Shown here piece after piece: positions 11,598 through 57,188 of a stretch of DNA of 64,000 nucleotides (position 1 is the first letter of the stretch; each line of letters starts with the position of its first letter). Made by a program: the position numbers and the translations under genes. This DNA is from Bradyrhizobium sp. AZCC 2176 (GTDB lineage Bacteria > Pseudomonadota > Alphaproteobacteria > Rhizobiales > Xanthobacteraceae), in NCBI RefSeq assembly GCF_036924645.1, contig NZ_JAZHRX010000001.1:2046001-2110000 (forward strand), read 5' to 3'. A model generated the notes under the pieces. That model saw nothing but the letters and a program-made list of their open reading frames with translations. It searched no databases and was not told where the DNA came from.

Positions 11598-11603
11598 GGG
11601 CGT

Positions 11604-37417: not shown

Positions 37418-37900
37418 CGGTGTCACCTTCTTCTTGAATGTTTCTTGGATGCGTGGATGTTGGCCGATCCCGGCAACAAGCCATTGTCATCCGCAAAGGT
37501 CAAACCGGGACGCCGATGACGGCCGTGACAACGCAGCGCGCTGTGTGAGAGGGATCACATTACCATCGACGGAATCGCGCGCGCGGCGGACATGATCCCC
37601 GCCAAAGCCCGTCGTCGGGCTCGCCTAACAGCGAAGCCCAATGGCAGGGCATAACGGCCAAGCAGGAACTCTGAAGAAAGCCTCACGATCTGTGGCCGAC
37701 CGTTGCCGGGGCGCCACTTACTCCCTTCATCCGCGATGGCGTGTCGCGGTTAATTGTCGCAATTAGTGACGACATCGCAAGCGGTTGACGGGCTGCGGGC
37801 GCGGTTTGATAATGCCGATAGCGTAGAGTAAGGTCGCCGCGGCGCGAGCTGGCATCGGCGCTATTTTGGCTGGACTGCCGTGATCTGGACTGCCGTCATT
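37418..37900. other. Long intergenic region without a gene
   Basis: This 483-bp gap separates the divergent metallo-hydrolase and caspase-like genes. I see no coding signal. It contains a CRP-type site at 37544-37559 and presumably both promoters. Confidence 0.6.
37544..37559. promoter_or_regulatory. CRP-type palindrome (10/10)
   Basis: TGTGA-GAGGGA-TCACA matches the CRP consensus TGTGA-N6-TCACA exactly. It is 127 nt upstream of the metallo-hydrolase operon and 342 nt upstream of the first caspase-like gene. A Crp with a CRP-like recognition helix is encoded at 44681-45355. Confidence 0.6.
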
Positions 37901-39364
37901 ATGAAAATCCGCCTCGTATTGCTCCTCACATTGCTTTTGTCAGTCGCGTCGGTAGCCCCGTCGTTGGCCGCCGGTGAACGCTATGCGCTGGTGATTGGCA
38001 ACGCGAAATATCCGGACGCCGAGGCGCCGCTGAAGGAGCCGATCAACGATGCCCGCGACATCGCCGAAGAACTCAAGCGCGACGGCTTCAATGTCGATAT
38101 CGGCGAGAACCTGACCGGCGAGCAGATGCGCCGCGCCTTCGAGCGCCTGTACGGCAAGATCAAGCCGGGCTCCGTCGCGCTGATTTTCTTCTCCGGCTTT
38201 GGCGTGCAATCGAGCCGCCAGAGCTACATGATCCCGGTCGATGCGCAGATCTGGACCGAGCCGGACGTTCGCCGCGACGGTTTCAGCCTCGAAACTGTGC
38301 TGGGCGAGATCAACAGCCGCGGCGCCGGCGTCAAGATCGCGCTGATCGATGCCTCCAGGCGCAATCCGTTCGAGCGCCGCTTTCGCAGCTTTTCGGCCGG
38401 CCTTGCGCCGGTGATTGCGCCGAACGGCACATTGGTGATGTATTCGGCCGCGCTCTCGTCCGTCGTTTCCGACAATGGCAGCGACCGCAGCCTGTTCGTG
38501 AAAGAACTGCTGAAGGAAATCCGCACCCCCGATCTGATGGCGGAGGAAACGCTAAATCGCACCCGTGTCGGCGTGACCCGCGCCTCGCGCCAGGAACAGG
38601 TGCCGTGGATTTCGTCGTCGCTCGCCGAGGATTTCTCCTTCATTCCCAGCGGCTCAGGCCCGCGGCCGGCGAGCCCGCCGTCGACTCCGGTGGCCACGGC
38701 GCCTGCAACGCCACCTGCTCCCGCGCCTGCGCCTCCTGCACCTCCCCCGGTGGCCGCACCGGCACCGCCGCCTCCTCCAGCGCCAGCGAAACCGGCTGAA
38801 GCGATTCCGCCGCCTCCACCACCGGCCAAGCCGGCCGAAAGCCCAAGCCCGACCGCGGTCGCACTTAACGACGACCCGACCATCAAGAGCCTGACCGCCA
38901 AGCTCAACGATAATCCGGACGATGCGGCCGCGCTGTACCGGCGCGGGCAGGTCTATGCAAGCAAGGGCGCCTACGAACTCGCCATCAAGGACTTCAACAA
39001 TTCGCTGCGGCTGAACCCGAAGGACGTGGAAGCCTTCAATAACCGCTGCTGGGCGCGCACGGTGATCGGCGACCTGCAGGCGGCCCTGAAGGATTGCAAC
39101 GAGGCGTTGCGGCTACGCCCGAATTTCGTCGACGCGCTCGACAGCCGCGGCCTCGTCAACCTGAAGAGCGGCCAGAACAAGAATGCAATTGCTGATTTCG
39201 ATGCCGCCCTCAAGATCAACCCGAGATTGACCTCGTCGCTGTACGGTCGCGGCCTTGCCAAGAAACGCAACGGCTCGATTCCGGAAGGCGACCTGGACAT
39301 CAACAATGCGAAGGCGATGGACCCCAATATCGTCAAGGAATTTGCCGATTACGGGGTGCAGTGA
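37901..39364 (+). CDS. Caspase-fold protein lacking the catalytic dyad, with TPR repeats
   Basis: A 487-residue exported protein. After a signal peptide (ending near PSLAAGER) comes a caspase p20-like domain: YALVIGNAKY, then IFFSGFGVQ where the catalytic His of AGHG is Phe (residue 100), and IALIDASRRNP where the catalytic Cys of DACR is Ser (residue 152). A Pro/Ala-rich linker (about residues 255-320) leads to three TPR repeats (AALYRRGQVYASKGAYELAI and following). It should be an inactive scaffold, probably periplasmic. A paralogue lies at 55975-56814. Confidence 0.88.
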   Translation: MKIRLVLLLTLLLSVASVAPSLAAGERYALVIGNAKYPDAEAPLKEPINDARDIAEELKRDGFNVDIGENLTGEQMRRAFERLYGKIKPGSVALIFFSGFGVQSSRQSYMIPVDAQIWTEPDVRRDGFSLETVLGEINSRGAGVKIALIDASRRNPFERRFRSFSAGLAPVIAPNGTLVMYSAALSSVVSDNGSDRSLFVKELLKEIRTPDLMAEETLNRTRVGVTRASRQEQVPWISSSLAEDFSFIPSGSGPRPASPPSTPVATAPATPPAPAPAPPAPPPVAAPAPPPPPAPAKPAEAIPPPPPPAKPAESPSPTAVALNDDPTIKSLTAKLNDNPDDAAALYRRGQVYASKGAYELAIKDFNNSLRLNPKDVEAFNNRCWARTVIGDLQAALKDCNEALRLRPNFVDALDSRGLVNLKSGQNKNAIADFDAALKINPRLTSSLYGRGLAKKRNGSIPEGDLDINNAKAMDPNIVKEFADYGVQ

Positions 39365-39511
39365 CGATTTTTTTTAGATGAAGGCTGACGCCCCCTCGAA
39401 CCCTGTGGCGGGCGTCCAGACTAAATTAAAGCAGCCGGCCGCAACCTTAAGGTCCGGCGGCTCATTTGAATGATTGGAACCGCGCGGGAAGCCCGCAGGA
39501 GGGGACTGGCA

Positions 39512-40180
39512 ATGGCAACTATCTCAGCAGCGAGAACCTTTACCGCAATCGTCTCGGTTGCGGCGCTCGGCGCCGCAATTTCCTTTGGTGCGGGAACCGC
39601 CCTGGCCCAGAATGTCACCGAGGATCAGATCGTCCGTGCGCTGGCACCCGAAAAAAAGCCGCTGACCCGCGGCCTTTCTACCGGTCCGCAGACCGTCGCC
39701 GACCCGGCCGTAGCCGCCGCCGAGGGCAAGTTCGTCCAGAAGATCCGCGGCCGCTCCACGCGTTCGCTTTCGATCGCCGAACGCGAAGAGATCGCCGCCA
39801 TCGTCAAGGACAAGCCGAAGATCGATCTGGAGATCAACTTCGACTACAACTCGGCCGATATCAGCGCGAAGTCGATGCCGTCGGTTCAGGCGCTCGGCCG
39901 CGCACTCACCAACAATGATCTCAAAGGCTCGACCTTCGTGGTCGCGGGCCATACCGATGCGGCCGGCGGCGAAGCCTATAACCAGGACCTCTCCGAGCGC
40001 CGCGCCGACGCGATCAAGCGCTATCTCGTCGACAAATACGGCATCAACGGCACCGATCTCGTCACCGTCGGATACGGCAAGAGCAAGCTCAAGGATCCGA
40101 GCCAGCCGATGGCGGAAGTGAACCGCCGCGTCCAGGTCGTGAACATGGAAAACAAGGCCACGGCGAACGCGTCCAAGTAA
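39512..40180 (+). CDS. OmpA-family protein
   Basis: A 222-residue exported protein with a signal peptide ending at GTALAQN and a C-terminal OmpA domain that binds peptidoglycan: INFDYNSADISAKSMPSV, VVAGHTDAAGGEAYNQDLS, ERRADAIKRYL and VNRRVQVVN. There is no beta-barrel; the middle 60 residues form a linker. It would sit in the periplasm, anchored to the wall. ATG 39512 has GGAGGGGACTGGCA upstream. A strong terminator follows. Confidence 0.92.
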   Translation: MATISAARTFTAIVSVAALGAAISFGAGTALAQNVTEDQIVRALAPEKKPLTRGLSTGPQTVADPAVAAAEGKFVQKIRGRSTRSLSIAEREEIAAIVKDKPKIDLEINFDYNSADISAKSMPSVQALGRALTNNDLKGSTFVVAGHTDAAGGEAYNQDLSERRADAIKRYLVDKYGINGTDLVTVGYGKSKLKDPSQPMAEVNRRVQVVNMENKATANASK

Positions 40181-40240
40181 GAATTGCAAGTAAGGGATTG
40201 CAAGTTAAGGGCGTGGCGTCGACCAATAGTTTCCGGCTAC

Positions 40241-40277
40241 AATACGTCCCGCAGCCATGCGGGACGTATTCGTTTTT
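40241..40277 (+). terminator. Rho-independent terminator after the OmpA-family gene
   Basis: A 13-bp perfect stem AATACGTCCCGCA/TGCGGGACGTATT with loop GCCA, then CG and five T. It isolates the OmpA gene from the RND genes downstream. Confidence 0.85.
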
Positions 40278-40351
40278 GGGCGCCATTGCAGGTCTTCGGC
40301 CAGCCAAATGCGCCCTGTTTGATTTGACTTCCAGTCTGGATTGATCCGGCG

Positions 40352-41275
40352 ATGAAATTCTCCGAATACCTCAAACCTGCGCTCGGAGTGGCTTTCGTTG
40401 CCGCTCTGGCCGTCGGCTATTACTGGTTCGAACACCGTCCGCGCGCCGAAGAAAAAGACACGCCGGGCCAGGCGCTGGTGATCGTGACCAAGTCTACCAA
40501 TGCCTGCTTCTCCGACATGGTGCGGGTCACCGGCTTCATCGTGCCGCGCCGCGAGGCCCAGGTCGGTGTCGACCAGGAAGGCTCACGGGTGACCGACCTG
40601 TTCGTCCGCGAAGGCGACATGGTCACCGAAAATCAGGAACTGGCGCGCCTCACCGCTCCGCCGCAGCAGCCGGGAGCCCCCGGCGGCCGAACCGGGCCGA
40701 TCTCGCTGCGCGCGCCTGCGGCCGGGCTCGTCACCGAAGCCAGGACCGCGGTCGGCGCTCCCGCCTCGCCGCAGGCAGGCCCGATGTTCCGCATTTCCGT
40801 GAACAATGAAATCGAACTCGAGGCCGAAGTGCCGAGCGTTCATCTGCTCAAGCTCAATCCGGGTGCTACGGTGCGCATCAGCCGTGACGACGCACCCGAC
40901 GTTGTCGGCAAGGTCCGGCAGATATCGCCGCAGATCGACCGCACGACCCAGCTCGGCAAGGTCCGGATTTCGCTGAACAACAATCCATCCCTCAAGGTCG
41001 GCATGTTTGCCCGCGCCAATATCGACGCCAAGCGTTCCTGCGGCGTCGCCGTGCCGCGCACCGCCATCGACCGCCTGACCTTGCAGGTCGTGAAAGGCAA
41101 CACCATCGAGACGCGACGAGTGCGCGTCGGCCTGACCTCCGAAACCTCCACCGAAATTCTTGAAGGCCTCGACGTCGGCGAAATCGTCGTGGCCGATGCT
41201 GGTACCTCGCTGCATGACGGCGACCAGATCAAGATCATGTTCGCCGACGAACTCGAGCGCACGCGGGCACGCTAA
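40352..41275 (+). CDS. RND efflux periplasmic adaptor
   Basis: A 307-residue membrane-fusion protein. It has an N-terminal anchor (LGVAFVAALAVGYYWF), a short biotinyl-lipoyl-like hairpin region (VGVDQEGSRVTDLFVREGDM ... ISLRAPAAGLV) and a beta-barrel (EIELEAEVPSVHLLKLNPGA). The stop TAA shares one base with the permease ATG (TAATG), so the two are co-translated. No outer-membrane factor is encoded nearby. A related orphan adaptor is at 54900-55796; both share an early CF motif after the signal region. Confidence 0.9.
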   Translation: MKFSEYLKPALGVAFVAALAVGYYWFEHRPRAEEKDTPGQALVIVTKSTNACFSDMVRVTGFIVPRREAQVGVDQEGSRVTDLFVREGDMVTENQELARLTAPPQQPGAPGGRTGPISLRAPAAGLVTEARTAVGAPASPQAGPMFRISVNNEIELEAEVPSVHLLKLNPGATVRISRDDAPDVVGKVRQISPQIDRTTQLGKVRISLNNNPSLKVGMFARANIDAKRSCGVAVPRTAIDRLTLQVVKGNTIETRRVRVGLTSETSTEILEGLDVGEIVVADAGTSLHDGDQIKIMFADELERTRAR

Positions 41276-44680: not shown

Positions 44681-45355
44681 CTACTCGTTCCTAGCCACCG
44701 CCGTCAGCTTGGTCATGTTCTGCAGCAAGATACGTCCGCGCTGCAGGTCCAGAATGCCGTCCTTGCGCCAGAGCTGCAGTTGACGGTTGACGCTTTCGCG
44801 GGCGGCGCCGACGAAGACGCCGAGCTGCTCCTGCGAGATGTGCACCTCGGAACCGAAATCGGAGGCGAGTGCGCAGAGCCGCCGCGCCAGGCGGACCGGC
44901 AGCGGCTGCAGCACGGATTCTTCCATCCGCTCGCTCTGCCAGCGGATGCGCTGGCACAACAGCATCATGATCTTGATCGCGACCTTGGGCTCGCGTTCGA
45001 GGAAGGCGAGGAAGTCCTCGCGCCGCAGCACGAACAGCTCCGACGGCTCGCCGGCGGTGGCGTCCGCGGTGCGGCTTTGGCCGTCAAGCACGGCGACCTC
45101 GCCGAACAGATCGCCGGGGCCCATGAAATTCAGCGTCAGGCGGCTGCCGTCGGAGGCGCCGGTCTCGATCCTGATCTGGCCGCGGCGGACCCCGTAGAGG
45201 GCATTGCCCGCATCGCCCTTCTGGAACAACATTTCGCCAACGCTGAGCTGCTCGGTGTGGCAAAGGCCGGAGATGCGCTGCAACTCGTCGGCGCCCAGAT
45301 CCGCAAACATCGGGTTCATTTTCAGAATGACCGCAAATTCGGCCTGTTTGCTCAT
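44681..45355 (-). CDS. Crp/Fnr-family regulator with cAMP-type signatures
   Basis: A 224-residue regulator. The nucleotide pocket reads FGEVAVLDGQSRTADATA, keeping the Glu and the Arg-Thr-Ala of cAMP-binding CRP proteins. The recognition helix is ARESVNRQL, in which Arg, Glu and Arg are at the positions that contact TGTGA in E. coli CRP (RETVGR). No FNR cysteines are present. ATG 45355 has GGAAGG upstream. A near-consensus CRP site lies 69 nt upstream, suggesting autoregulation. A class III cyclase is encoded 2.5 kb away. Confidence 0.9.
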   Translation of the reverse strand: MSKQAEFAVILKMNPMFADLGADELQRISGLCHTEQLSVGEMLFQKGDAGNALYGVRRGQIRIETGASDGSRLTLNFMGPGDLFGEVAVLDGQSRTADATAGEPSELFVLRREDFLAFLEREPKVAIKIMMLLCQRIRWQSERMEESVLQPLPVRLARRLCALASDFGSEVHISQEQLGVFVGAARESVNRQLQLWRKDGILDLQRGRILLQNMTKLTAVARNE

Positions 45356-45423
45356 TGTATTACCTTCCAAATCGGCCCGGACCCGCCCCTCAAGGCCGTT
45401 AGCAAGATTCTCATGCCAACGAG

Positions 45424-45439
45424 TGTGTCATAAGTCACA
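45424..45439. promoter_or_regulatory. CRP-type palindrome (9/10)
   Basis: TGTGT-CATAAG-TCACA differs from the CRP consensus at one base. It lies between the divergent crp-like gene (69 nt upstream of its start) and the AsmA gene (135 nt upstream). Confidence 0.5.
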
Positions 45440-45574
45440 TAACTTTGCAGTAGCCTCGGAATATTTTTGGCTTCTTTGGGCCCCACCCCTTTCCGGGATA
45501 AGCTCGCCTGACCGGTTGCGCCCGCGTATCGCGCCACCGAAATAAGTGCCGTTTGCGCGGTCTGGAATGTCGAT

Positions 45575-47629
45575 ATGAAAGCACTGAAAATTGCCGGCGC
45601 CGCCATTGGCGCCGTGGTCGTCGTCATCGTGCTGCTGCTGGTGATCGGCATCCCGTCCAGCTTCCTGACGGCGCAAATCCAGGAGCGGGTCGAGCGCGAG
45701 ACCGGCTACACGCTCGCCATCAATGGCGGGGCGAAGATCGGCCTGTGGCCATCGCTCAACATCACGCTGAACGATGTCACGCTGCAGGATCCGAAGGACC
45801 GCGACATCAACCACCGCTTCACGGCCTCGAGCATCGAGGCGGACGTCACGCTTGCGAGCCTGTGGGCCGGCCGGCCGCACATCACCGAACTCGTCGTCAT
45901 CCGCCCGGTGGTGAACTTGCCGCTGAAACGCGAGCGCGTGAGAGAGGTCAGCCCTCCTTCGAAGCCCGCTGCCGGCAAGGCGACTGACAAGGCGACCGAT
46001 GCCCTTTCGATCGAGCATATCAGCGTCACCGGCGGCACCATCGTGTTCGCCAACCTGCGCGACCGCGTCGAGAACAGGATCGAGACCGTCAACGCCGACG
46101 TCACCATCGATGCCGACCGCAAGGTCGTGCTGACCGGCAGCGCCCGCAGCAGCGGCAATCCGCTGAAATTCGAGATCAAGGCGGCACCGCCCGCGGCTCC
46201 GGTCGAGCGGCAGAATATCCCGGCCGAGATCAAGATCGATGCGCCCGGCCTGTTGCGCGCCCCGCTCGCGGCCAAGGCCGAAGTCCGGCTCAACGGCTCG
46301 GTCGTGATGATCAACGGCGTCACCGGCGCGCTCGGCGACGGCGCGTTCAACGGCTGGGCCTCGGTCGATCTGTCGAGCAAGCCGCTGGTGAAGCTCGACC
46401 TCGATTTCCAGAAGCTCGCGGTCGCGATGTCGCGCAGCACCGACAGTTCCGCGGGCCAGCCCTGGAGCAGTGCCACGATCGACGTCAACGGCCTCAACTA
46501 TGTCGACTTCCAGGCACGCATTTCCGCGGCCGAGCTCAATGTCGGCGACGCGCGCTTCACCCCCGCCGCGATCGACGCCACGCTCACCAGCGGCGTGCTG
46601 AAGGCGCAGGTTTCCAACCTCGGCGCCTATGAGGGCAACGCCAATGGCGATCTGACCGTCGACGTCTCCGCGGCCAATCCCACCTACACGATGCGGGCCG
46701 ACCTCACCAGCGTGCGCGCGCTTCCGCTGCTGCATGGCCTCGCCGACTTCGACCGGATCGACGGCCGGATGCAGGCGAAGATCAGCGTGCGCTCCACCGG
46801 CACCAGCCAGCGCGCGATCATGTCGAATGTGGCCGGCACCGCCTTCGTCGTATTCCAGGACGGCGCCATCAAGGGCCTCAATATCGCGCAGATGATCCGC
46901 TCGCTGACGGCGAGCACCTTGTCCGGCTGGCAGGAGAGCGAGGAGAAGGCGACGGATCTTTCGCAATTGTCGGCGTCGTTCAGGATCGACAAGGGCCAGG
47001 CGCAGACCACCGATCTCAATCTCGTCGGCCCGCTGGTCAAGCTGACCGGCGCAGGCACCATTGATCTCGGCACCAAGCAGATCGGATTCCGCGTCGAGCC
47101 GAAGCTCGTGATGACCACCGAAGGCCAGGGCCGCGCCACCGACCCGCTCGGGCTCGGCATTCCCGTGATGATCGAGGGCCCGTGGGGGAGCCCACGGATC
47201 TATCCGGAGATGCAGGGCATTCTCGACAATCCCGACGCGGCCTATGCCAAGCTGAAGGAGATGGGCAAGGGCCTGTTCGGCCAGAACGGCGCCGGGCTTG
47301 GCGCTGCGATCGGCAATCTGCTCGGCGGAAGGCCCGGGGCGACCGACGGACAGCAAGGCGGCGCCGGCGGCCAGCAGCCGGGCAATCCGCTCGGCGGCCA
47401 GCTCGGCGAGACCATCGGCAATCTGTTGCAGCAGGGCCTGGGCGGATTGAATCAAGGCGGCGCGCGGCCGGGCGGCCAGCGCAGCATCCCGAGCCCCGCC
47501 TCGCCCGCACAGGCGCCGACCGAGGCCGCCCCGGCCGAGCCCGCGCCCTCCGCGGTGCCGAGCGATACGACCGCCCAGCAGGACAGTCAGCCAATGAACG
47601 AGGTCTTGCGGCAGTTGTTCAACCGGTGA
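45575..47629 (+). CDS. AsmA-family protein
   Basis: A 684-residue protein with an N-terminal membrane anchor (AIGAVVVVIVLLLVIGIPSS) and the AsmA repeat-beta-groove body (VERETGYTLAINGGAKIG near the start, then TDLNLVGPLVKLTGAGTIDL near residue 475). AsmA-like proteins span the periplasm and are linked to phospholipid transport to the outer membrane. The last 120 residues are rich in Gly, Gln and Pro. It is divergent from the crp-like gene. Confidence 0.9.
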   Translation: MKALKIAGAAIGAVVVVIVLLLVIGIPSSFLTAQIQERVERETGYTLAINGGAKIGLWPSLNITLNDVTLQDPKDRDINHRFTASSIEADVTLASLWAGRPHITELVVIRPVVNLPLKRERVREVSPPSKPAAGKATDKATDALSIEHISVTGGTIVFANLRDRVENRIETVNADVTIDADRKVVLTGSARSSGNPLKFEIKAAPPAAPVERQNIPAEIKIDAPGLLRAPLAAKAEVRLNGSVVMINGVTGALGDGAFNGWASVDLSSKPLVKLDLDFQKLAVAMSRSTDSSAGQPWSSATIDVNGLNYVDFQARISAAELNVGDARFTPAAIDATLTSGVLKAQVSNLGAYEGNANGDLTVDVSAANPTYTMRADLTSVRALPLLHGLADFDRIDGRMQAKISVRSTGTSQRAIMSNVAGTAFVVFQDGAIKGLNIAQMIRSLTASTLSGWQESEEKATDLSQLSASFRIDKGQAQTTDLNLVGPLVKLTGAGTIDLGTKQIGFRVEPKLVMTTEGQGRATDPLGLGIPVMIEGPWGSPRIYPEMQGILDNPDAAYAKLKEMGKGLFGQNGAGLGAAIGNLLGGRPGATDGQQGGAGGQQPGNPLGGQLGETIGNLLQQGLGGLNQGGARPGGQRSIPSPASPAQAPTEAAPAEPAPSAVPSDTTAQQDSQPMNEVLRQLFNR

Positions 47630-47640
47630 GCTTCCTTCTC

Positions 47641-47727: not shown

Positions 47728-47894
47728 ATTCCTCCAGGGATTCCTGCCCATAATTGGGGCTAACCATGTCGGCGGGCTCACAGCCCAGCCCGCCAATTCG
47801 TGCTAAAGAGCCCCTCATGCCGGGCTGCCGAGACAGACCGGCGCCAGTGACAAACGGATGCGCGCGCCCCGCGTGGGCCGGCACGAGGGTCCGG

Positions 47895-50366
47895 ATGGAC
47901 GAGGTCAAGGACAGAGTAAACTTCCTGCGCGAAGGCCTGTTCGCCAAATACGTCGTCGCGCTGGTCGGCCTCGTCGTGTTCGTGCTGGCGGTCAACGGCG
48001 CGATGGAAATCTGGATCACCTACCGCGGCATCAGGAGCTCGCTCAACGACGGCATGAGCGAGAAGGCGGAGGCGACCGCCAAGCGGATCCAGCAATCCTT
48101 GTCCGACCTCGAGCGGCAGATCTCCTGGGTGACGCGCGCCAGCGCCACCAAGATCACCGAAGCCGCAACGCTGGAGCAGCACCGCGAAGACTATGCGCAA
48201 CTGCTGCGCCAGGTGCCGCAAGTCAGCCAGCTCTCGTTCCTCAACGCCCAGGGCCGCGAGCAACTCCGCCACACCCGCCAGACCGTCACGCTCGGCAGCG
48301 ACGCCGATTTTTCCCGCGATGTCAGGTTCATCGAGACCGTCAGGCGCGGCACCAGCTTTGCGCCGGCCTACTTCCGCGACCAGCGGCCGTTGATGTCGAT
48401 CACGCTGCCGCATGCCGATGGCAGCGTCACCGTGGCCGAGATCGACCTCGGCTTCCTGGCCGACTTTTTTGACGATGCGCAGGTCGGCAAGTTGGCGTAC
48501 GCCTATGTCATCGATCCCAAGGGCGAGGTGCTGGCGAGCTCCGCGAAGGGCCCTGAAACCGGCAAGACTCTCTCGGCGCTGCCGCAGGTCGCCGCCGTCA
48601 TCGCGCCCGGCGGCAAGGCGCCGGCGTCCGGCACTGATATTCGCGGCGATGCGGTGCTGACGACGGCCGCCAGGGTGCCGAAGCTCGGCTGGCATGTATT
48701 CTTCGAACAGCCGACCGCGCAGGCGCTGACGCCGATCCGGGATCAACTGGTGCGGATCGCGCTTTTGATCGCGCTCGGCCTCGTGGTCGCGCTCATCGCC
48801 GGCACCATCATGGCCCGCCGCATGCTGGTGCCGATCACGGCGCTGCAGGCCGGCGCCAGGCGTCTCGGCGCCGGCGATTTCGGCCACCGTATCGAGGTGA
48901 AGACATCCGACGAGCTGGAGGAGCTGGCCAACCAGTTCAACGGCATGGCGGGCCAGCTCGCCGCGACCTATTCCGACCTCGAAGACAAGGTGAACGAGCG
49001 GACGCGGGATCTGGCGCAATCGATCAACGAACTCAAGGTGCTCGAGGAAGTCGGCCGCGCGGTCGCCTCCTCGCTCGATCTCAATGCGGTGCTGCCGACC
49101 GTCGCCGCGCGTGCGCTGGAGATCACGCATGCCGACGCGGTGCTGATCTATGGCTATGACGCCGGCAATTACCAGTTCAGCCTCGCCGAATCCATCGGCA
49201 TCGACAAGGCGGCCGAAGGCGTCCACCGCGCCATCGACGCCGACAACTCCCCGCTCGGCGAGGCCGCAACGCAGGGCGAGCCGATCACGATTCCCGATCT
49301 CGACGCCACGCCGGCGCATCCGCTGCGCGATCTCGCCGTCGAGGCCGGCTTTCATTCGGTGCTGGTGGTGCCGCTGGTCGACCAGACCGGCATTCTGGGA
49401 TCGCTGGTGGTGCTGCGGCGGAACGCCGGCGAATTTTCACCGAACCTGACCGGGCTGATGAAGACGTTTGCGCACCAGGCGGTGCTGGCGATGCGCAATG
49501 CGCGGCTGTTCACCGAAGTCGACTACAAGAGCCGCGAACTCGAGACTGCGCACTCCACGGTGCGCCAGCAGGCCGACAAGCTGCAGGAACAGACCGACCA
49601 ACTCAAGGATTGGAACCGCTCGCTGGAGGAGCGCGTGGAAACCCAGCTCGGCGAGATCGAGCGCATCCGCAGGCTGGAGCGCTTCCTCGCGCCGCAGGTG
49701 GCACAACTGATCGCCTCTTCCGACGGCCATGAAGGCCTGCTCGACAGCCACCGCCGCGAAGTCACCGTCGTGTTCTGCGACCTGCGCGGTTTTACGAGTT
49801 TCACCGAGACCACCGAGCCGGAAGAGGCGATGAACGTGCTGCGCGAATATCACGCCGCGCTGGGCGAATTGATCTTCAAGTACGAAGGCACGCTCGACCG
49901 CTATGCCGGCGACGGCGTGATGATCCTGTTCAACGCGCCGATCCAGTTCGAAGATCACACCGCGCGCGCCGTCCGCATGGCGGTGGAGATGCGCGACACC
50001 ATCGGGCAACTCACCGAAAAATGGCGCAACCGCGGCCACAATCTCGGCTTTGGCATCGGCATCGCGCTCGGCTACGCCACGCTCGGCCAGATCGGCTTCG
50101 AGCAGCGGCTGGAATACGCCGCGATCGGCAGCGTCACCAACCTTGCGTCCAGGCTGTGCGACGAGGCCAAGGCCAACCAGATCGTGGTGTCGAGGCGCGT
50201 CTACGGCATGGTCGAACAGTGGGTGGAAGGACGGCCGATCGACGATTTGAATCTGAAGGGGTTCAATCATCCTATCCTGGCGGCGGAGATTTTGGCGTGG
50301 CGCGAGGCGGTCGACAATGTGGTGGATGCGGCTGCAGCGGCGGCACGAAGGAAGAAGATGCAGTAG
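47895..50366 (+). CDS. Class III adenylate/guanylate cyclase with sensor, HAMP and GAF domains
   Basis: An 823-residue membrane sensor. In order: helix 1 (about 20-40), a periplasmic double-Cache-like sensor (to about 280), helix 2 (LLIALGLVVALIAGTIMA, about 288-306), HAMP (to about 365), GAF (about 390-530), a coiled coil and the cyclase domain (about 615-790). The metal-binding Asp residues are in VFCDLRGFTSF and YAGDGVMILFN; the Asn/Arg of catalysis are in GSVTNLASRL. All are present. Whether ATP or GTP is used is not certain. ATG 47895 has GAGGGT upstream; longer readings start at 47754 or 47817. Confidence 0.92.
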   Translation: MDEVKDRVNFLREGLFAKYVVALVGLVVFVLAVNGAMEIWITYRGIRSSLNDGMSEKAEATAKRIQQSLSDLERQISWVTRASATKITEAATLEQHREDYAQLLRQVPQVSQLSFLNAQGREQLRHTRQTVTLGSDADFSRDVRFIETVRRGTSFAPAYFRDQRPLMSITLPHADGSVTVAEIDLGFLADFFDDAQVGKLAYAYVIDPKGEVLASSAKGPETGKTLSALPQVAAVIAPGGKAPASGTDIRGDAVLTTAARVPKLGWHVFFEQPTAQALTPIRDQLVRIALLIALGLVVALIAGTIMARRMLVPITALQAGARRLGAGDFGHRIEVKTSDELEELANQFNGMAGQLAATYSDLEDKVNERTRDLAQSINELKVLEEVGRAVASSLDLNAVLPTVAARALEITHADAVLIYGYDAGNYQFSLAESIGIDKAAEGVHRAIDADNSPLGEAATQGEPITIPDLDATPAHPLRDLAVEAGFHSVLVVPLVDQTGILGSLVVLRRNAGEFSPNLTGLMKTFAHQAVLAMRNARLFTEVDYKSRELETAHSTVRQQADKLQEQTDQLKDWNRSLEERVETQLGEIERIRRLERFLAPQVAQLIASSDGHEGLLDSHRREVTVVFCDLRGFTSFTETTEPEEAMNVLREYHAALGELIFKYEGTLDRYAGDGVMILFNAPIQFEDHTARAVRMAVEMRDTIGQLTEKWRNRGHNLGFGIGIALGYATLGQIGFEQRLEYAAIGSVTNLASRLCDEAKANQIVVSRRVYGMVEQWVEGRPIDDLNLKGFNHPILAAEILAWREAVDNVVDAAAAAARRKKMQ

Positions 50367-50370
50367 TTTC

Positions 50371-50415
50371 TGTCGTCCCTGCCTCCGTGCGCAATTGCGC
50401 ACTAGGCAGGGACGA
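50371..50415. repeat. Palindromic element with core GTGCGCAATTGCGCAC
   Basis: Outer arms GTCGTCCCTGCC and GGCAGGGACGAC enclose the perfect 16-bp palindrome at 50386-50401, also seen at 17537-17552. It follows the cyclase stop by 4 nt and may terminate its transcript. Confidence 0.85.
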
Positions 50416-50427
50416 CGCGGAGTGTTA

Positions 50428-51013: not shown

Positions 51014-51169
51014 GGTGATTTGGATCAATCGGGAAGCGAATTATTTTCGAGGGCGAGACTGGACGGGGCAAATCACGTTGAAACCGTTGGAAAAATTTGC
51101 TCGACAGCGCAAGCGCCGCTGCAACCGTTGCGGCCGACAGACAACAAGCGGCGACGCCGTACCCGCCGG

Positions 51170-51436
51170 TCAGTGCCAACCGGGCTGCTGCATTCGCGCG
51201 CGGGTCTGCGCCAGTTCTTCGAGACTGTTATCGATCTGCTCGCGGTACATGCCGATATCCTCGAGATGGCGATCGTCGAGCATGCGCAGGGCCTCACGCG
51301 CGGCGTGACGCTCGTGGCGCGCGATCACCGCTGCGAGGAAGCGGTTGATGTGACGGCGCAGGCGCGCCAGCCAAACCGCGGTGCGCCAGGCAAATGGCCT
51401 GGTGGCGGAGGTCGGAATGGTGGTCAGCATAGTCAT
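51170..51436 (-). CDS. DUF1127 small protein
   Basis: An 88-residue basic protein. The C-terminal part LRMLDDRHLEDIGMYREQID is the DUF1127 signature (L...L.D..L.DIG..R..I). Small DUF1127 proteins act in phosphate, stress and RNA-linked regulation in other alphaproteobacteria. The start ATG 51436 has only a weak purine stretch upstream; ATG 51430 is an alternative. Confidence 0.85.
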   Translation of the reverse strand: MTMLTTIPTSATRPFAWRTAVWLARLRRHINRFLAAVIARHERHAAREALRMLDDRHLEDIGMYREQIDNSLEELAQTRARMQQPGWH

Positions 51437-51651
51437 GGCTATTTCTTTCAAACAGTAGCCGGAATCCGGTGAGCTTGCCGGGTCCCCTTTTCTATCGAAG
51501 GCCTGCTGCCAGCATAGTGTTAGCAGCGTTCGGCGCGCACGCCTAAAGGCGCGACGAGCACCGGGCACGGCTGGATCGAGGATCCAAACGCGGAAACGAT
51601 GAGCCGCACCGCCGGCAGGGCCAGCCCGCCGCCGATGCAAGGCGAGGCTCG

Positions 51652-51879
51652 TCAGGCCACCTTTCGGCCGGCCGCGAGATCCTTGACGGCTTCGGTGGTC
51701 AGCGGCTGGCCGCCGACGCCCCAATCGCCGCTCGCGACCTCGGAAATCTTGACCCAGGTAACGCCGCGCATGTTCTCGCCTTCGATCGACACCATGGCGT
51801 CCGTGAGCTTCCGGATCATCTGGCTCTTCTGCTCGGAACTGAACACGTTCTCGATGACGTGAACCTCTATCAATGGCAT
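51652..51879 (-). CDS. Tautomerase-family protein (4-oxalocrotonate tautomerase-like)
   Basis: A 75-residue protein beginning Met-Pro; removal of Met exposes the catalytic Pro1 of the tautomerase superfamily. The conserved pattern PLIEVHVIENVFSSEQKSQM and the later WVKISEV fit the 4-OT/MSAD-like short class, which form hexamers. The true substrate is unknown. It lies upstream of the DUF1127 gene on the same strand, but 215 nt away. Confidence 0.88.
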   Translation of the reverse strand: MPLIEVHVIENVFSSEQKSQMIRKLTDAMVSIEGENMRGVTWVKISEVASGDWGVGGQPLTTEAVKDLAAGRKVA

Positions 51880-52003
51880 GCAGTTCTCCTTGATGCTTTC
51901 CTCGCAAAACCGAGGGCAGCGTCAACATGCCTGTGACAGCGGACCGAGACTTTGAGACAGCTATGATTTGCGGTCCAGACCCGCTTGAGATGTCGCCGCG
52001 CAG

Positions 52004-53584
52004 CTATTGCAGGCCGGCGCGCTGAAACCCCTCCAGATAATGCGCCTTGTCCGCCTCGTGCTCGAACGGCAGTCCGCTGGCGAGCCAGGCGAGCGAGATG
52101 TTGGGCTGGGCGCGGCGGAGGCCGTCGAGGGCTGCCTTGGCGGCATCGCGGCCGCCGGCCATGCCGAGGGAGGCGGTCAGCACGCGGTGGGCGCCGACAA
52201 AGTCGGCGCGCTGCCGCAGCGCTTCACGCGACAGGCGGATCGCCTCCGCGTAATTTTTGCCGACATACTGGCAATAGGCGGCGACGCCGCAATAGATCGC
52301 GGCAAAGGGATCGCGCGGTGAGAGTTTCAGCGCCTCGCGCGCGGCGCGATCGCCGTCCTCCCAGCGCCCGCGATAGGACAGCGCGACGCCATAGAGGCCG
52401 CGCGCGGGCGAAAAATTCGGATTGAGCCGCAACGCGAGCTCGAATTCGGCGATGCAATCATCGAAGCGCCGGTTGAACAGATAGACGCTGGCCAGCGCAT
52501 AGTGCGCCCACGCATCCTCGCTGTCGGCCCGGATCGCCGCCAGCGCCGCGCGCTCCGCTGTCGGCACGGCGCTCGACATTTCCTGCCAGCCCATATGGGC
52601 AGAGAACATGTGGCAGGCAGCCAGCAGGCTGAGCGCCTGGCCGTAGGAAGGATCGACACTGATCGCCTTTTCCAGAAGCGCCTGCGCGACCAGATTGTCC
52701 TGCCGCGTGACGCGCCAATAGTGCGACAGCGCGCGCATCACCAGGTCCCACGCATCCATGTTGTCAGGCGTCTTGCGCCGGGCCCGGAAATCCTCCGCCG
52801 CATAGAGTTGCGGCTCGATCGCCGCGACGACGGCCTGGGTGATTTCGTCCTGCACCGCGAACACGTCGGCGAGATCGCGGTCGTAACGCTCCGCCCAGAG
52901 GTGACTGCCGGTGGCCACATCGACGAGCTGGGCCGTGATGCGCACATGGTCGCCGTCCTTGCGCACGCTGCCCTCGACGACGTAGCCGACACCGAGCTCC
53001 TCGCCGATCTGCTGGTGATGGACGGATTTTCCCCGGTAGCTGAACGAGGAATTCCGCGCGATCACATAGAACCAGCGCAGCTTCGACAGCGCGGTGATGA
53101 TGTCCTCGCTGATGCCTTCCGAAAAATATTCCTGCTCCGGCTCGCCGCTAAGATTGACAAACGGTAGCACCGCGATCGCGGTGCGATCGAGCACCGGGAG
53201 CTGCGGGTGCAACGGTTCGCCGGTGAGGTCGAGCGGCTGGGGCGCACCGGCGCGCACTGCGCCGCCGTTCGCGGCTTTCGGCTGCACGTCGCCGACGAAG
53301 CGAAAGCCTTTTCGCGCCAGGGTGCGGATCATGATCTGATCCTTGCCGCTGTCGCCGACCGCCTTGCGCGCGGCGTTGATCCGGCTCGTCAACGTGGATT
53401 CGGAGACAATGCGGCCATCCCACACCGTCTCGATCAGATCGTCCTTGGTGACGACATGGTCGCGGTTTTCGATCAGGTGAACCAAGAGATCGAACACCTG
53501 CGGCTCGACCGCCACGCTCTCGCCGCCGCGGGTCAGCTCGCGAAGGTCGACATCAAGCACATGGTTGGAAAAATGAAATTGCAC
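52004..53584 (-). CDS. Winged-helix regulator with TolB-like and TPR domains
   Basis: A 526-residue protein. The N-terminal OmpR/CadC-type winged helix covers about residues 1-100 (VFDLLVHLIENRDHVVTKDD, SRINAARKAVGDSG). A TolB-N-like part follows (IAVLPFVNLSGEPEQEYFSEG), then TPR-like repeats from about residue 270. There is no membrane helix, so it is a cytoplasmic regulator. It is divergent from a methyltransferase gene, with a CRP-type site between them. Confidence 0.87.
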   Translation of the reverse strand: MQFHFSNHVLDVDLRELTRGGESVAVEPQVFDLLVHLIENRDHVVTKDDLIETVWDGRIVSESTLTSRINAARKAVGDSGKDQIMIRTLARKGFRFVGDVQPKAANGGAVRAGAPQPLDLTGEPLHPQLPVLDRTAIAVLPFVNLSGEPEQEYFSEGISEDIITALSKLRWFYVIARNSSFSYRGKSVHHQQIGEELGVGYVVEGSVRKDGDHVRITAQLVDVATGSHLWAERYDRDLADVFAVQDEITQAVVAAIEPQLYAAEDFRARRKTPDNMDAWDLVMRALSHYWRVTRQDNLVAQALLEKAISVDPSYGQALSLLAACHMFSAHMGWQEMSSAVPTAERAALAAIRADSEDAWAHYALASVYLFNRRFDDCIAEFELALRLNPNFSPARGLYGVALSYRGRWEDGDRAAREALKLSPRDPFAAIYCGVAAYCQYVGKNYAEAIRLSREALRQRADFVGAHRVLTASLGMAGGRDAAKAALDGLRRAQPNISLAWLASGLPFEHEADKAHYLEGFQRAGLQ

Positions 53585-53692
53585 GGCTTCATCCCGGTTA
53601 GAACATCATAAGTCTTTTCAGACCGGCAGGTAATTTCCGGTCACTTTCGTCCCGCACGCGAGGAAGGTAGAGCGAATTTACCTTCGCGAATG

Positions 53693-53708
53693 TGTGCGAA
53701 ATCTCACA
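53693..53708. promoter_or_regulatory. CRP-type palindrome (9/10)
   Basis: TGTGC-GAAATC-TCACA differs from the consensus at one base. It is 109 nt upstream of the winged-helix/TPR regulator and 142 nt upstream of the methyltransferase. Confidence 0.5.
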
Positions 53709-53849
53709 GAAAAAGAAATCTCACTGAAAAATCAGGATGGTCTCAAGGCAAAATCAGCCCGGCATCACAGTCTTTAGGTCCTGACAGGGCCATGTTTGGT
53801 TCATCGCGGCCCCTTCCGTGGCCGCATGATCCCGATCAAGGAGACCCCG

Positions 53850-54725
53850 ATGACCGGCCAGACCGCGACCGCAGCGACCCAGATCCAAGCCGATTCTGCC
53901 CAAACCAATTCTGCCCAACCTGCTCCCGACCTTGCCGCCCTCAAGACGCGTCAACAGGCCGCATGGTCGTCGGGCGATTACGCCATTGTCGGCGCGACGC
54001 TGCAGATCGTCGGCGAGGAACTCTGCGAGGCGCTCGATCTCAAGGCCGGCTCGAAGGTGCTCGATGTCGCCGCCGGCAACGGCATGGCGAGCCTCGCCGC
54101 GGCACGGCGGTGGTGCGACGTCACCTCGACCGACTACGTGCCGGCGTTGCTGGAGCGCGGCCGGGCGCGCGCCGCCGCTGAAGGCATGGCAATCGAATTC
54201 AGGGAAGCCGACGCGGAAAACCTGCCGTTCGACGACAACAGGTTTGACACCGTGCTCTCCACCTTCGGCGTCATGTTCACGCCGAACCAGGACCGCGCGG
54301 CGGCCGAGCTGATGCGGGTCTGCAAGCCCAAGGGCAAGATCGGCCTGGCGAACTGGACACCGGACGGTTTTATCGGACAGGTCTTCAAGACGCTCGGCAA
54401 ATATCTGCCGCCGCCCGCCGGGACCAAATCGCCGGCGCTGTGGGGAACGAGCGCGCGGCTGACCGAAATGTTCGACGCTGACGCACGCTCGATCAGGGCG
54501 GAATCGCGCCTGTTCAAGTTTCGCTATCGCTCGCCAGCGCACTTCCTCGACATCTTCAAGACGTACTACGGCCCGGTGCTGAAAGCGTTCGCAGCCCTCG
54601 AGCCCGCGAAACAGGAAGAGTTGCATAACGATCTGCATGCCCTGATCGTTCGCATGAACCGCTCCGGCGACGGCACGATGGTCGTGCCCAGCGAGTATCT
54701 CGAGGTCGTCATCACCAAGCGGTGA
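53850..54725 (+). CDS. Class I SAM-dependent methyltransferase
   Basis: A 291-residue protein. SAM motif I is VLDVAAGNGMASLAAA (near residue 73), and FREADAENLPFDDNRFDTVL gives motifs II and III. The closest look is to the UbiE/methyltransferase-11 type. The N-terminal 35 residues are Ala/Gln-rich. ATG 53850 has AAGGAGACCCCG upstream; ATG 53826 is an alternative. The substrate is unknown. Confidence 0.88.
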   Translation: MTGQTATAATQIQADSAQTNSAQPAPDLAALKTRQQAAWSSGDYAIVGATLQIVGEELCEALDLKAGSKVLDVAAGNGMASLAAARRWCDVTSTDYVPALLERGRARAAAEGMAIEFREADAENLPFDDNRFDTVLSTFGVMFTPNQDRAAAELMRVCKPKGKIGLANWTPDGFIGQVFKTLGKYLPPPAGTKSPALWGTSARLTEMFDADARSIRAESRLFKFRYRSPAHFLDIFKTYYGPVLKAFAALEPAKQEELHNDLHALIVRMNRSGDGTMVVPSEYLEVVITKR

Positions 54726-54899
54726 AGCCGAACGCCGGCAAGATCGGCGGAGCCATTGGCGTGGCTCCGCTGGTGGCGGGTGCGCGGGCCTGACGCTGAT
54801 CGAGCCGATGCTGCGGGCGGAGGGGTGACATTCTTGGCGCTTGGCTTTCCCGTCGGCCTTCTGGTATCGGTTAAGACCGAAACCGGGAACAAAACGCAG

Positions 54900-55796
54900 A
54901 TGACCACCTTCCGCGCGCGCGGCCTTTCACTGACGCTGCCCCCCCTGATTGCCGTCGGCATGATCTGCTTTTCCAGCCACCCCCTGCTCGCCGCCGACGA
55001 TGAAGCCCCGGCGAAGGGCGCCGCCGTCACCGTGCTCAAAGCCGCAAAGTCCTGCTTCGCCAATATCGTCGAGGTCTCCGGCACCGTCATTCCGCGCGAG
55101 GAGAACCAGGTGCGCCCCGAACGGATGGGCCTGAAAGTGGCCGAGGTGATGGTGGATGCGGGCGACAGCGTTACCGCAGGCCAGGTGCTGGCGAAGCTGA
55201 GCCTGCCCGAGGGCGGGCAGATCACGGTGCAGGCGCCGGTGGGCGGGGTGATCTCGGCCTCCACCGCGTCGGTCGGTGCGATGGCCTCGGGCAAGGGCGA
55301 GGCGCTATTCTCGATCATCGCGCGCGGCGAGTTCGACCTGGTCGGCATGGTGCCGACGCGCGACATCCAGAAGCTTCAGGTCAACCAGACCGCGCGGATC
55401 AAGGTGATCGGCGCCGGCGAGGTCGATGGAAAAGTGCGGCGGCTGTCGACCACGGTCGAGCCGAACAGCCAGCTCGCGCAGGTGTTCGTCGGCGTCACCA
55501 CCAACCGGCGGCTCCTGGTCAATTCCAGCGGCCGCGCGCAGATCAAGACCGGGCAGAGCTGCGGCGTCTCGGTGCCGCTCACCGCGATCCTCTACGGCTC
55601 CGCCGGCACCGTGGTGCAGGTGGTGCGGCGCGCGCGCGTCGAAACCCGGCGGGTGGAGACCGGGCTGATGGCGGCCGGCCAGGTCGAGATCACCTCGGGC
55701 CTGCAGGAAGGCGACATCGTGGTGGCGCGCGCCGGTGCGCTGCTGCGCGAAGGCGATCCGGTGCGGCCGGTGACCGCGAGCGCGGATGTGAAATAG
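54900..55796 (+). CDS. Orphan efflux adaptor (HlyD/RND type)
   Basis: A 298-residue exported protein with a signal peptide ending near PLLAADDE. It contains the adaptor hairpin/lipoyl region (VRPERMGLKVAEVMVDAGDS, ITVQAPVGGVISASTASVG) and a beta-barrel (EFDLVGMVPTRDIQKLQVNQ). It is similar in layout to the adaptor at 40352-41275. No permease lies next to it, so it may serve that pump or another. The start is not certain: ATG 54900 lacks a strong site and an upstream GTG is possible. Confidence 0.83.
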   Translation: MTTFRARGLSLTLPPLIAVGMICFSSHPLLAADDEAPAKGAAVTVLKAAKSCFANIVEVSGTVIPREENQVRPERMGLKVAEVMVDAGDSVTAGQVLAKLSLPEGGQITVQAPVGGVISASTASVGAMASGKGEALFSIIARGEFDLVGMVPTRDIQKLQVNQTARIKVIGAGEVDGKVRRLSTTVEPNSQLAQVFVGVTTNRRLLVNSSGRAQIKTGQSCGVSVPLTAILYGSAGTVVQVVRRARVETRRVETGLMAAGQVEITSGLQEGDIVVARAGALLREGDPVRPVTASADVK

Positions 55797-55802
55797 GTAT
55801 CG

Positions 55803-55968
55803 CCGTCATGCCCGGGCAGAAGCGCGAAGCGCGTCTTCGCGCTAGATGTCCCGGGCATCCACGTTCTACACTTCGGCGGATGCAAAGACGTGGATGGCCG
55901 GGACAAGCCCGGCCATGACGAAGAGAGCGATGTCTTGATGATGCGCGGGTCAAGCCCGCGCATGACAG
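55803..55968. repeat. Cluster of intergenic inverted repeats
   Basis: GTCATGCCCGGGC...GCCCGGGAC-type units, then CGTGGATGGCCGGGACAAGC and CCGGCCATGACG, then ATGCGCGGGTCAAGCCCGCGCATGAC. These resemble the element at 47641-47727. They separate the convergent adaptor and caspase-like genes. Confidence 0.8.
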
Positions 55969-55974
55969 CCTGAA

Positions 55975-56814
55975 TTACCCGCCGATGCGGACGTCTTCCA
56001 GCAGGGACGACGACACCTGCGGCACCTGCTCGCCGTCGGAGGCGCGGGAGACGGAGATGCGGGTCTTGTTGAAGGCGCTGGCTGCGCCGGACTGCGAATT
56101 CAAATTGTTGAGCAGCTCGGTCACCAGCACGCTGTACTGGCCCTTGCCGTCATCGGCGACCTTGCCCGGGGTCGCCGAGGTCAGGATCAGCGCGTTCTCC
56201 GGCGCCGAGATCGGGGCGAGGCCATGGGAGTAGGAACGGAAGCGGCGCTCATAGGGGTTACGGCGGGAGGCGTCGACGACGACGAGCTTGGCCTTGGCGC
56301 CCTTTTCGGTCATCGCGTCCAGCACCTGTTCGATCGAGACGCCGTCGCGGCGGACGTCAGCTTCCTTCCAGATCGCGGCATCGACCGGAATCATGAAGCT
56401 CTCGCGGCCTACCTGCACGCCATAACCGCCGAAGAACAGCATCGCCACGGTGTCCTGCTTGATCTTGGCCTTGAGCCGGACGATGGCGCGGGCCATGTCG
56501 TCCTTGGTGGCGTCCTCGACCACGTCGACGTCAAAACCCTTGGCGCGCAAGGCGGCGGTGAGGCCGCGGGCATCGTTGATGGGCTGGGCGAGCGGGGCTG
56601 AGGCATCCGGGTAATGGCCGTTGCCGATCACGAGCGCAACCCGGCTGGCAGACGTGCCGATCGAGCCGGTCTGTTCGGTTCCGATCGCCTTGGCGGCGTC
56701 GAGCGAGCGCTTGTTCAACGCCGCATGGGCGCCGATAGCCAGCGACACCAGGCCGACAAACGCAACGGCAATGGTGAGGCTGCGGCGGGAGATGCGGAGC
56801 TGACCGAGGTTCAT
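55975..56814 (-). CDS. Caspase-fold protein lacking the catalytic dyad (second copy)
   Basis: A 279-residue protein with an N-terminal hydrophobic anchor or signal (TIAVAFVGLVSLAIGAHA) and one caspase p20-like domain. The His position is Tyr (FFGGYGVQ, residue 131) and the Cys position is Ser (VVVDASRRNP, residue 183). The 52-residue spacing and the flanks (MIPVDAAIWKEADVRRDG, RRNPYERRFRSYSHGLAP) match the copy at 37901-39364 closely, but TPR repeats are absent. It is likely an inactive, membrane- or periplasm-located protein. ATG 56814 has GGATGG upstream. Confidence 0.88.
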   Translation of the reverse strand: MNLGQLRISRRSLTIAVAFVGLVSLAIGAHAALNKRSLDAAKAIGTEQTGSIGTSASRVALVIGNGHYPDASAPLAQPINDARGLTAALRAKGFDVDVVEDATKDDMARAIVRLKAKIKQDTVAMLFFGGYGVQVGRESFMIPVDAAIWKEADVRRDGVSIEQVLDAMTEKGAKAKLVVVDASRRNPYERRFRSYSHGLAPISAPENALILTSATPGKVADDGKGQYSVLVTELLNNLNSQSGAASAFNKTRISVSRASDGEQVPQVSSSLLEDVRIGG

Positions 56815-57188
56815 CGCGTTACCATCCCAAGTTTGTCCAAAGGCACCAAGCAAGACCGGCGCCAGTTAGTCGCGTGAGGACCGTTCAGGTTTGAAGGGGT
56901 TGCCGGGTGTGTGCCGTCCAATTGCGCTCAATTTGCGGCACCGCAACAGGCGGGCTTTTAGCCTGCTGGGCCCTCCCGAACAACCTCATTTGGTGCATGG
57001 AGCCAATTGCCGTCGACTATGGCGGAGTGTTAGTTCCCGTTAAGTGACCTACATCACATTTGTGTTTTTCGTCGATTTATATAGTTTTCAAGGGCTTGCG
57101 GGCCCGATCCGGCCGGCGGTGGCCGCCTTAAGTAATATGCCATGCTTAATGGGGCCCTTCCTTCACCGTTCCGGCGGAAAGAAATTGC
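56815..57188. other. Intergenic region between divergent genes
   Basis: This 374-bp gap has no coding signal. It is more AT-rich than its surroundings near 57040-57090 and contains a CRP-type site; it should hold both promoters. Confidence 0.55.
57043..57058. promoter_or_regulatory. CRP-type palindrome (9/10)
   Basis: AGTGA-CCTACA-TCACA differs from the CRP consensus at one base. It is 131 nt upstream of the DxDTTA-motif gene and 229 nt upstream of the second caspase-like gene. Confidence 0.5.

Follow-up and report, generated by a model that had tools for sequence, protein, structure and literature searches.

The consensus site of Escherichia coli CRP is TGTGA-N6-TCACA. Here we describe four sites of this type, together with the crp gene that lies among them, in a window of 64,000 nucleotides from the soil and root-nodule bacterium Bradyrhizobium sp. 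AZCC 2176 (G000:C1:2046001-2110000; the genome is a single contig of 7.15 Mb). Among solved structures, the best match to the encoded Crp is Clr of Sinorhizobium meliloti (7PZA/7PZB, E=1.2e-28, in a PDB comparison), likewise a Crp of the cyclic-nucleotide-binding type in a rhizobium rich in class III cyclases. According to the available part of its description (PMC10127613), S. meliloti has 28 adenylate or guanylate cyclase genes, the Clr core site is GTNNCNNNNGNNAC, E181 is not conserved in Clr, and Clr R195 and R200 are the counterparts of E. coli R180 and R185. By inspection, the Clr core fits one of the four window sites, the one between crp and asmA, and, unlike Clr, the Bradyrhizobium Crp has a Glu at the E181 place. 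At the level of sequence, the system resembles E. coli CRP in its TGTGA-N6-TCACA sites and in the equivalents of R180, E181 and R185, and it differs in the recognition helix (RESVNR versus RE(T/M)VGR), in the ligand pocket at two places and in having caspase-like genes as a repeated target.

These caspase-like genes recall the alphaproteobacterial metacaspases. In the accessible portion of PMC3501461, PF00656 genes are abundant in rhizobia, the Cys-His pair is often lost in Alphaproteobacteria, and Ser and Tyr are overall the most common substitutes. The regulon of the CRP/FNR regulator NnrR of B. diazoefficiens includes one caspase family gene, bll3611, and the NnrR boxes are mostly TTG-N8-CAA (PMC6710368, as far as the available excerpt extends), unlike the TGTGA-N6-TCACA of the Bradyrhizobium sites described here. 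CRP-type control of bacterial metacaspases was not found in the literature searched, nor did a literature search, in which most papers, including two on regulon reconstruction, were covered at the level of listings, return a TGTGA-type CRP regulon defined in Bradyrhizobium. As a kind of system, a CRP with its cyclase is known; the target set did not appear in the literature searched.

The initial annotation of this window had proposed a local cyclic AMP (cAMP)-CRP regulon, with four intergenic palindromes matching the consensus at 10, 9, 9 and 9 of 10 positions. Coordinates and scores were reproduced, and our gene calls confirmed that each palindrome is intergenic and lies between the genes named:

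37544..37559, no strand: CRP-type site TGTGAGAGGGATCACA, exact (10/10), between the MBL-fold hydrolase gene (-) and the pseudo-caspase gene casp1 (+)
45424..45439, no strand: CRP-type site TGTGTCATAAGTCACA, 9/10, between crp (-) and asmA (+)
53693..53708, no strand: CRP-type site TGTGCGAAATCTCACA, 9/10, between the winged-helix/TPR regulator gene (-) and the methyltransferase gene (+)
57043..57058, no strand: CRP-type site AGTGACCTACATCACA, 9/10, between the pseudo-caspase gene casp2 (-) and the gene for a 576-aa protein, the DxDTTA gene (+)

Judged by their sequences in related genomes, these palindromes look like genuine, conserved CRP-type operators, and it is their conservation, not their number, that argues against a random origin. 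With a probability of roughly 0.75, we consider that they serve as operators in a CRP-type regulon that is genome-wide and would be governed by the Crp encoded at 44681-45370.

Conservation was assessed in the best 80 of 292 crp loci. Seventy-six of these are labelled Bradyrhizobium and the remaining four (L032, L033, L068 and L075) Xanthobacteraceae, bacterium or Alphaproteobacteria only; relatives with a Crp at 97-98% identity are all labelled Bradyrhizobium. Genes in the compared loci were called by a codon-score script trained on 16 window genes, which places starts to within tens of bases, and a site was scored for a gene pair only in loci holding both flanking genes at ≥60% identity. The site upstream of crp was present in 80/80 related loci, its best match having exactly one mismatch in each. 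Over these 80 sequences, TGTGA and CACA were invariant (2.0 bits each), the spacer had 1.1-1.8 bits, and the two flanks averaged 1.19 and 0.77 bits. The site between the MBL-fold hydrolase gene and casp1 was found at ≤1 mismatch in 43 of 50 relatives, 36 of them exact; one of the other seven had a site with two mismatches, and six had none at ≤2. Similarly, the site between the regulator and methyltransferase genes was conserved at ≤1 mismatch in 7/7 relatives (5 exact; at a different offset in L034) and that between casp2 and the DxDTTA gene in 17/17 (5 exact). Spacers differed among the conserved sites. Comparison intergenic regions were without a site (asmA-cya, 0/51; rnd-crp, 0/64) or nearly so (casp1-ompA, 1/61). 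Furthermore, among the orthologs of the eight genes that flank the sites, 282 of 306 had a site, versus 10 of the 557 other genes called in the 80 loci (within 400 bp upstream). An earlier, unsplit gene background (292 of 863 gene calls with a site) was discarded because the four conserved regions recur in these loci.

The initial annotation held that this many sites are unlikely by chance. As an argument from counts this is weak, and as an argument from phylogenetic conservation it is strong. At ≤1 mismatch, the window contains 4 matches; Markov models of order 1-3 predict 0.65-0.78, and the highest count reached in 40 simulations of each model was 3-4. However, when as many sites as the genome holds (91) were placed uniformly, four fell within some 19.5-kb stretch in 15% of the simulations (P=0.15), and the window count is therefore not the argument. 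At ≤2 mismatches there is no excess at all, the window having 10 matches versus 14.7 expected. This would suit an origin of the four sites as chance matches, but such an origin is contradicted by the conservation with diverged spacers (80/80, 43/50, 7/7 and 17/17) and can be given almost no credence.

Genome-wide, 91 sites at ≤1 mismatch (18 exact) were found in 7.15 Mb, compared to 20 for the reversed pattern, and the tighter form GTGA-N6-TCACA gave 36+35 strand matches compared to 4+1. The surroundings of 64 distinct sites of the 91 were examined; the three other window sites were excluded from this count, sites 2385562 and 6709913 lay outside the position filter of the gene-calling step, and a site at 4773247, absent from the listed coordinates, was found in one of the loci examined. 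Fifty-four of the 64 mapped sites were intergenic, 4 lay at gene edges and 6 in coding sequence, versus 4, 1 and 10, respectively, among the first 15 of the 20 reversed-pattern sites (54/64 versus 4/15 intergenic, Fisher P=3e-5). In a second Bradyrhizobium genome, G035, 40 of 50 examined sites (103 in total) were intergenic. Comparing 62 of our loci with the 48 G035 loci that hold these 50 sites, we found at least nine with a long homologous G035 partner in which a site lies close to the corresponding position; for two of these, the match is to several paralogous caspase loci. The 20 genes near sites that were checked first, chosen partly for conservation in G035, included four caspase-like genes (PF00656) far from the window. 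Others were genes for OmpA, for an extracytoplasmic-function (ECF) sigma factor beside a GGDEF gene and for a fusion of a cyclase with a sulfatase-modifying-factor domain, as well as LuxR-type, SPFH, DUF2147, polysaccharide deacetylase, DXS, DnaB and FHIPEP-family genes.

Because of this, the word "local" had to be given up. A similar motif density genome-wide had been named in the initial annotation as a refutation of its proposal, and this is largely what the genome scan returned; the near-perfect sites show no significant local clustering. What stands of the interpretation as a CRP regulon is the conserved operators and Crp as their best candidate binder; the local regulon is replaced by a genome-wide one with a caspase theme. 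It is most unlikely that Crp governs mainly the genes of the 20-kb block. Four sites do fall within 19.5 kb, seven lie between 2,042 and 2,141 kb of the genome, and a precedent exists in another family, where the genome G058 has six exact sites in ~13 kb. Against this stand the 91 sites genome-wide, the mapped ones mostly intergenic, the P value of 0.15 for four in 19.5 kb, and the four further, distant caspase genes with sites.

A subset of the exact sites has the longer palindrome TGTGAAC-N2-GTTCACA or a form near it (G000:C1 262301, 1464391, 3779388, 6001201 and 7007216); similar sites occur in G035, and another regulator may be involved. That part of the genome-wide set belongs to such a second, unrelated palindromic regulator, so that 91 overstates the Crp regulon, is a serious possibility, though not the one we favor. 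In its favor, the extended GAAC..GTTC form, complete or almost complete, is shown by several exact sites of two genomes. Against it, the full form was seen neither in the four window sites nor in their inspected counterparts or the inspected caspase sites. This explanation limits the size of the regulon and not the finding.

Caspase-like genes across the genome, beyond the window covered by the initial annotation, are a repeated target of the putative regulon. The window itself holds two:

37880..39364, plus strand: casp1, with a signal-like N-terminus, caspase fold and TPR; catalytic His replaced by Phe and Cys by Ser
55975..56853, minus strand: casp2, caspase fold; catalytic His replaced by Tyr and Cys by Ser

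The corresponding motifs are FFSGFG and DASR in casp1 and FFGGYG and DASR in casp2, those of the other caspases being AGHG and DACR; the Cys-His dyad of catalytic caspases and metacaspases is kept in neither. In a search of 112 loci, both catalytic residues were substituted in 66/66 casp1 orthologs and 32/32 casp2 orthologs (≥60% identity, covering both motifs). The four distant site-bearing caspases of the genome retain His and Cys. Caspases with and without the catalytic pair thus have one operator type in common, and the catalytically dead casp1 and casp2 could act as brakes.

In four Bradyrhizobium genomes, we searched the 900 bp before each caspase domain (PF00656) for a site at ≤1 mismatch. 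Such a site preceded 6/11 genes in our genome, 10/19 in G035, 6/12 in G143 and 5/11 in G194, in total 27 of 53, where the genome rate predicts 0.6. The total rises to 31 of 53 if two outer mismatches are admitted (GTGA-N6-TCAC). For comparison, of the 25 genes at 0.5 to 35 kb of the window, none has a site within 400 bp. The 12 PF00656 matches of our genome represent 11 genes, one being split over two frames, and the G194 match at 3069897 was not scanned separately. The split caspase domain (G000:C1:3864893-3865550), with PF00656 matches 5 bases apart, is possibly a decaying gene. Measured to the called start, 17 of the 27 caspase sites lay at 66-178 bp and two at 436 bp; the other eight, at 199-320 bp, are those of casp1, casp2 and their counterparts.

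We next consider the regulator:

44681..45370, minus strand: crp, cyclic-nucleotide (cNMP)-binding and HTH_Crp_2 domains; recognition helix AARESVNRQL

Both domains of Crp were confirmed and place it in the CRP/FNR superfamily (PF00027, 3.7e-23, N-terminal cNMP binding; PF13545, 3.4e-14, C-terminal HTH); against the NCBIfam CRP equivalog, it scored 62.3 bits with a cut-off of 266. A CRP-like recognition helix had been noted before, and alignment to Clr bears this out: RESVNR has Arg at the Clr R195 and R200 positions and Glu at the E. coli E181 place, so that R, E and R of the E. coli-type RE(T/M)VGR, the motif given for the main Crp cluster in PMC10127613, are kept while T/M is replaced by S and G by N. 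The recognition-helix alignment comprised 11 of the 29 PF13545 loci of the genome (phmmer E≤0.01), the other 18 being dropped. The earlier statement that Crp keeps the cAMP-pocket residues was too strong. Relative to the Clr pocket, as listed in the available part of PMC10127613, Crp retains the G-E pair and the Arg, and it has Thr for S96, Gln for T140 and Ser for T141. At the T140 position, orthologs of the same family have Met, Ile, Ala or Thr; at T141 they have Ser, except for six g120 loci.

A natural loss bears on the identity of the binder. In G236, which belongs to another genus of the same family, the locus (L359, G236:C7:740500-760400) lacks crp-asmA-cya, the regulator and the methyltransferase, and the gene order MBL, casp1, ompA, hlyD, rnd, hlyD2, casp2, DxDTTA is kept. 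No site was found before casp1, casp2 or any of the seven caspases of this genome (0/7 versus 27/53 in the four Bradyrhizobium genomes, Fisher P=0.013), and the single site in the 20 kb lies within the region matched by the DxDTTA gene. The casp2-DxDTTA site was present in 10/13 same-family loci having crp plus that gene pair. Because a site lies upstream of crp in all 80 related loci, because the R-E-R triad is present and because G236, without crp-asmA-cya, is also without the casp1 and casp2 sites, this Crp appears to be the best candidate binder of the four sites.

It is improbable, although less so than a purely local regulon, that the sites are real and bound mainly by another CRP/FNR protein, above all the Clr-like paralog L097 (G000:C1:4401151). 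This homolog, 38% identical to Crp, has a pocket closer to those of Clr and E. coli CRP (R-S, T-S) and a RESINK helix, and 20 of the 29 PF13545 matches of the genome are above the family cut-off. However, L097 has a Lys at the place of E. coli CRP R185 and no site at ≤2 mismatches within 300 bp upstream of itself, whereas a site precedes crp in 80/80 loci. Moreover, G236, which is without the sites at casp1 and casp2, still has a protein with this RESINK helix (L137). Among the more distant Crp homologs of the order (L132-L154), 6 of 23 are preceded within 300 bp by a site that is exact or has one mismatch.

The genes on the other side of the crp-upstream site are the following:

45575..47629, plus strand: asmA-family gene, divergent from crp; syntenic in most relatives whose contig extends to it
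47754..50366, plus strand: cya, dCache-HAMP-GAF-class III cyclase (Guanylate_cyc); start may be 47895

The membrane class III cyclase near crp was confirmed, with the domains dCache, HAMP, GAF and Guanylate_cyc. In class III cyclases, two Asp bind metal, and an Asn and an Arg are transition-state residues; an adenine-specifying Lys marks adenylate cyclases such as CyaB. Aligned to CyaB (3R5G), cya keeps the two metal Asp, the Asn and the Arg (FCDLRGFT, YAGDG, NLASR) and has Arg (LDRYAGD) where CyaB has the Lys. Because of this replacement, the product of cya is not readable from its sequence; we consider cAMP a likely and cyclic GMP (cGMP) a possible ligand of Crp. Clr-like regulators (cluster G) are marked by activation through both nucleotides. 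The genome has 41 class III cyclase matches, so crosstalk is possible and the adjacent cya need not be the sole source of ligand. Cyclase genes as a general target class were examined and set aside: at least 2 of the 41 had a site in the 900 bp that precede the cyclase domain (68 of the 91 sites considered), a count that is a poor control because the cyclase domain is often C-terminal. One of the cyclase genes (L207:1851-3299, from G000:C1 ~346950 on) encodes a class III cyclase domain and a sulfatase-modifying-factor (FGE-like) domain in one protein; it has a CRP-type site 219 bp upstream and a homologous site-bearing locus in G035. In another (L241:1832-3142), an alpha/beta hydrolase is fused with a class III cyclase domain.

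Among 31 loci of the same family outside Bradyrhizobium, the crp-upstream site was present in 14/19 with an adjacent asmA and in 1/12 without (Fisher P=0.0006, uncorrected for relatedness; the six g120 loci are all in the group without asmA). From this pattern, the asmA-cya side seems to be served by the site no less than crp.

The remaining genes flanking the sites are:

36611..37426, minus strand: MBL-fold hydrolase, likely target
52004..53584, minus strand: winged-helix and TPR regulator, CadC/HilA-like, below NCBIfam cut-offs
53796..54725, plus strand: S-adenosylmethionine (SAM)-dependent methyltransferase; start may be 53826
57189..58919, plus strand: DxDTTA gene, encoding a protein of 576 aa without a Pfam or NCBIfam match (E≤0.001)

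The MBL-fold hydrolase at the casp1 site resembles quorum-quenching acyl-homoserine lactone (AHL) lactonases, well below NCBIfam cut-offs. At positions 1-12000, the window has a G+C content of 57-58% versus 62-65% in the rest, a possible island edge.

Outside the family, we analyzed eight crp loci, five being the closest other-family homologs and three chosen for having a site. A class III cyclase lay divergent or downstream within ~4 kb in 5/8 (L351, L353, L354, L357 and L358), and 6/8 had a site. In G058, the six exact sites surround a 48% identical Crp homolog (L352, G058:C1:4630000-4643000, positions 431, 920, 2431, 4387 and 7546; L362, position 72), with a genome total of 34 at ≤1 mismatch, and this cluster was reproduced in 1 of 200,000 simulations. 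The idea of a local regulon fits G058 better than our genome. Near the G058 cluster lie genes for an ABC transporter, an HlyD protein, a protein kinase and a caspase/peptidoglycan-binding protein.

Several observations weigh against assigning a genome-wide caspase regulon to this Crp. Its ligand is uncertain, because the Clr T140 place holds Gln and is variable among orthologs and because cya has Arg for the CyaB Lys. The upstream site at ≤1 mismatch is lacking in 16 of the 31 same-family crp orthologs outside Bradyrhizobium, and in G429, where Crp is 87-88% identical and crp stands without asmA-cya, no site at ≤1 mismatch was found in 20 kb; the crp gene alone thus does not guarantee sites, and Crp can persist without these operators. 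The G236 contrast comes from one genome, the RESINK paralog L097 offers a second Clr-like protein in the same cell, and the comparison region ompA-hlyD also carries sites, in 6/62 loci. The motif is in excess in G077 as well, which is without this Crp (24 versus 10 for the control). Since such genomes show an excess too, the raw motif count is not specific, and the forward/reversed ratio across 249 genomes of the order was rejected as a test of Crp. Finally, none of the 23 caspase genes scanned in five other-family genomes with 43-52% identical Crp homologs had a site at ≤1 mismatch, and the caspase link was therefore not found outside this clade. The scan outside Bradyrhizobium covered 30 of 34 caspase matches, G182 and G077 being without a match; in G247, a GTGA-N6-TCAC site with two mismatches lies 733 bp before one gene.

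We nevertheless favor a genome-wide CRP-type regulon under this Crp. Computation shows the sites, how they are conserved and placed between genes, that they are enriched before caspase genes and that the crp-upstream site goes with the presence of asmA. From these we infer the following model, whose putative parts are that this Crp is the protein that binds, that it depends on cAMP or cGMP, and in which sense it regulates. An extracytoplasmic signal at a dCache cyclase, the neighboring cya and probably others, would lead to synthesis of a cyclic nucleotide. The Crp dimer would bind this nucleotide and then TGTGA-N6-TCACA. Through the crp/asmA site, Crp would exert feedback on asmA-cya, the divergent unit, and perhaps also on its own gene. 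At other sites, it would set transcription of caspase-like genes, namely the four with an intact His-Cys pair and the dead casp1 and casp2, and further targets may include the MBL hydrolase, the winged-helix regulator, the methyltransferase and other genes. The chances seem to us about even that this amounts to a second-messenger programme for caspases in Bradyrhizobium and close relatives, in which a Clr-related Crp, reading the DNA code of E. coli CRP and linked to a sensor cyclase of its own, would jointly control the expression of several caspases that have an intact catalytic pair and signal-like N-termini and of two conserved, catalytically dead ones as possible brakes.

To our knowledge, little is understood of how bacterial caspase homologs are switched on. 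Having a conserved operator before about half of the caspase genes examined provides a direct handle on their control, and Crp and cya gain a likely function within a genome that counts 41 class III cyclase matches. If true, the model would describe a transcriptional control circuit for prokaryotic caspases and would hint at a way in which bacteria may turn their relatives of cell-death proteases on and off.

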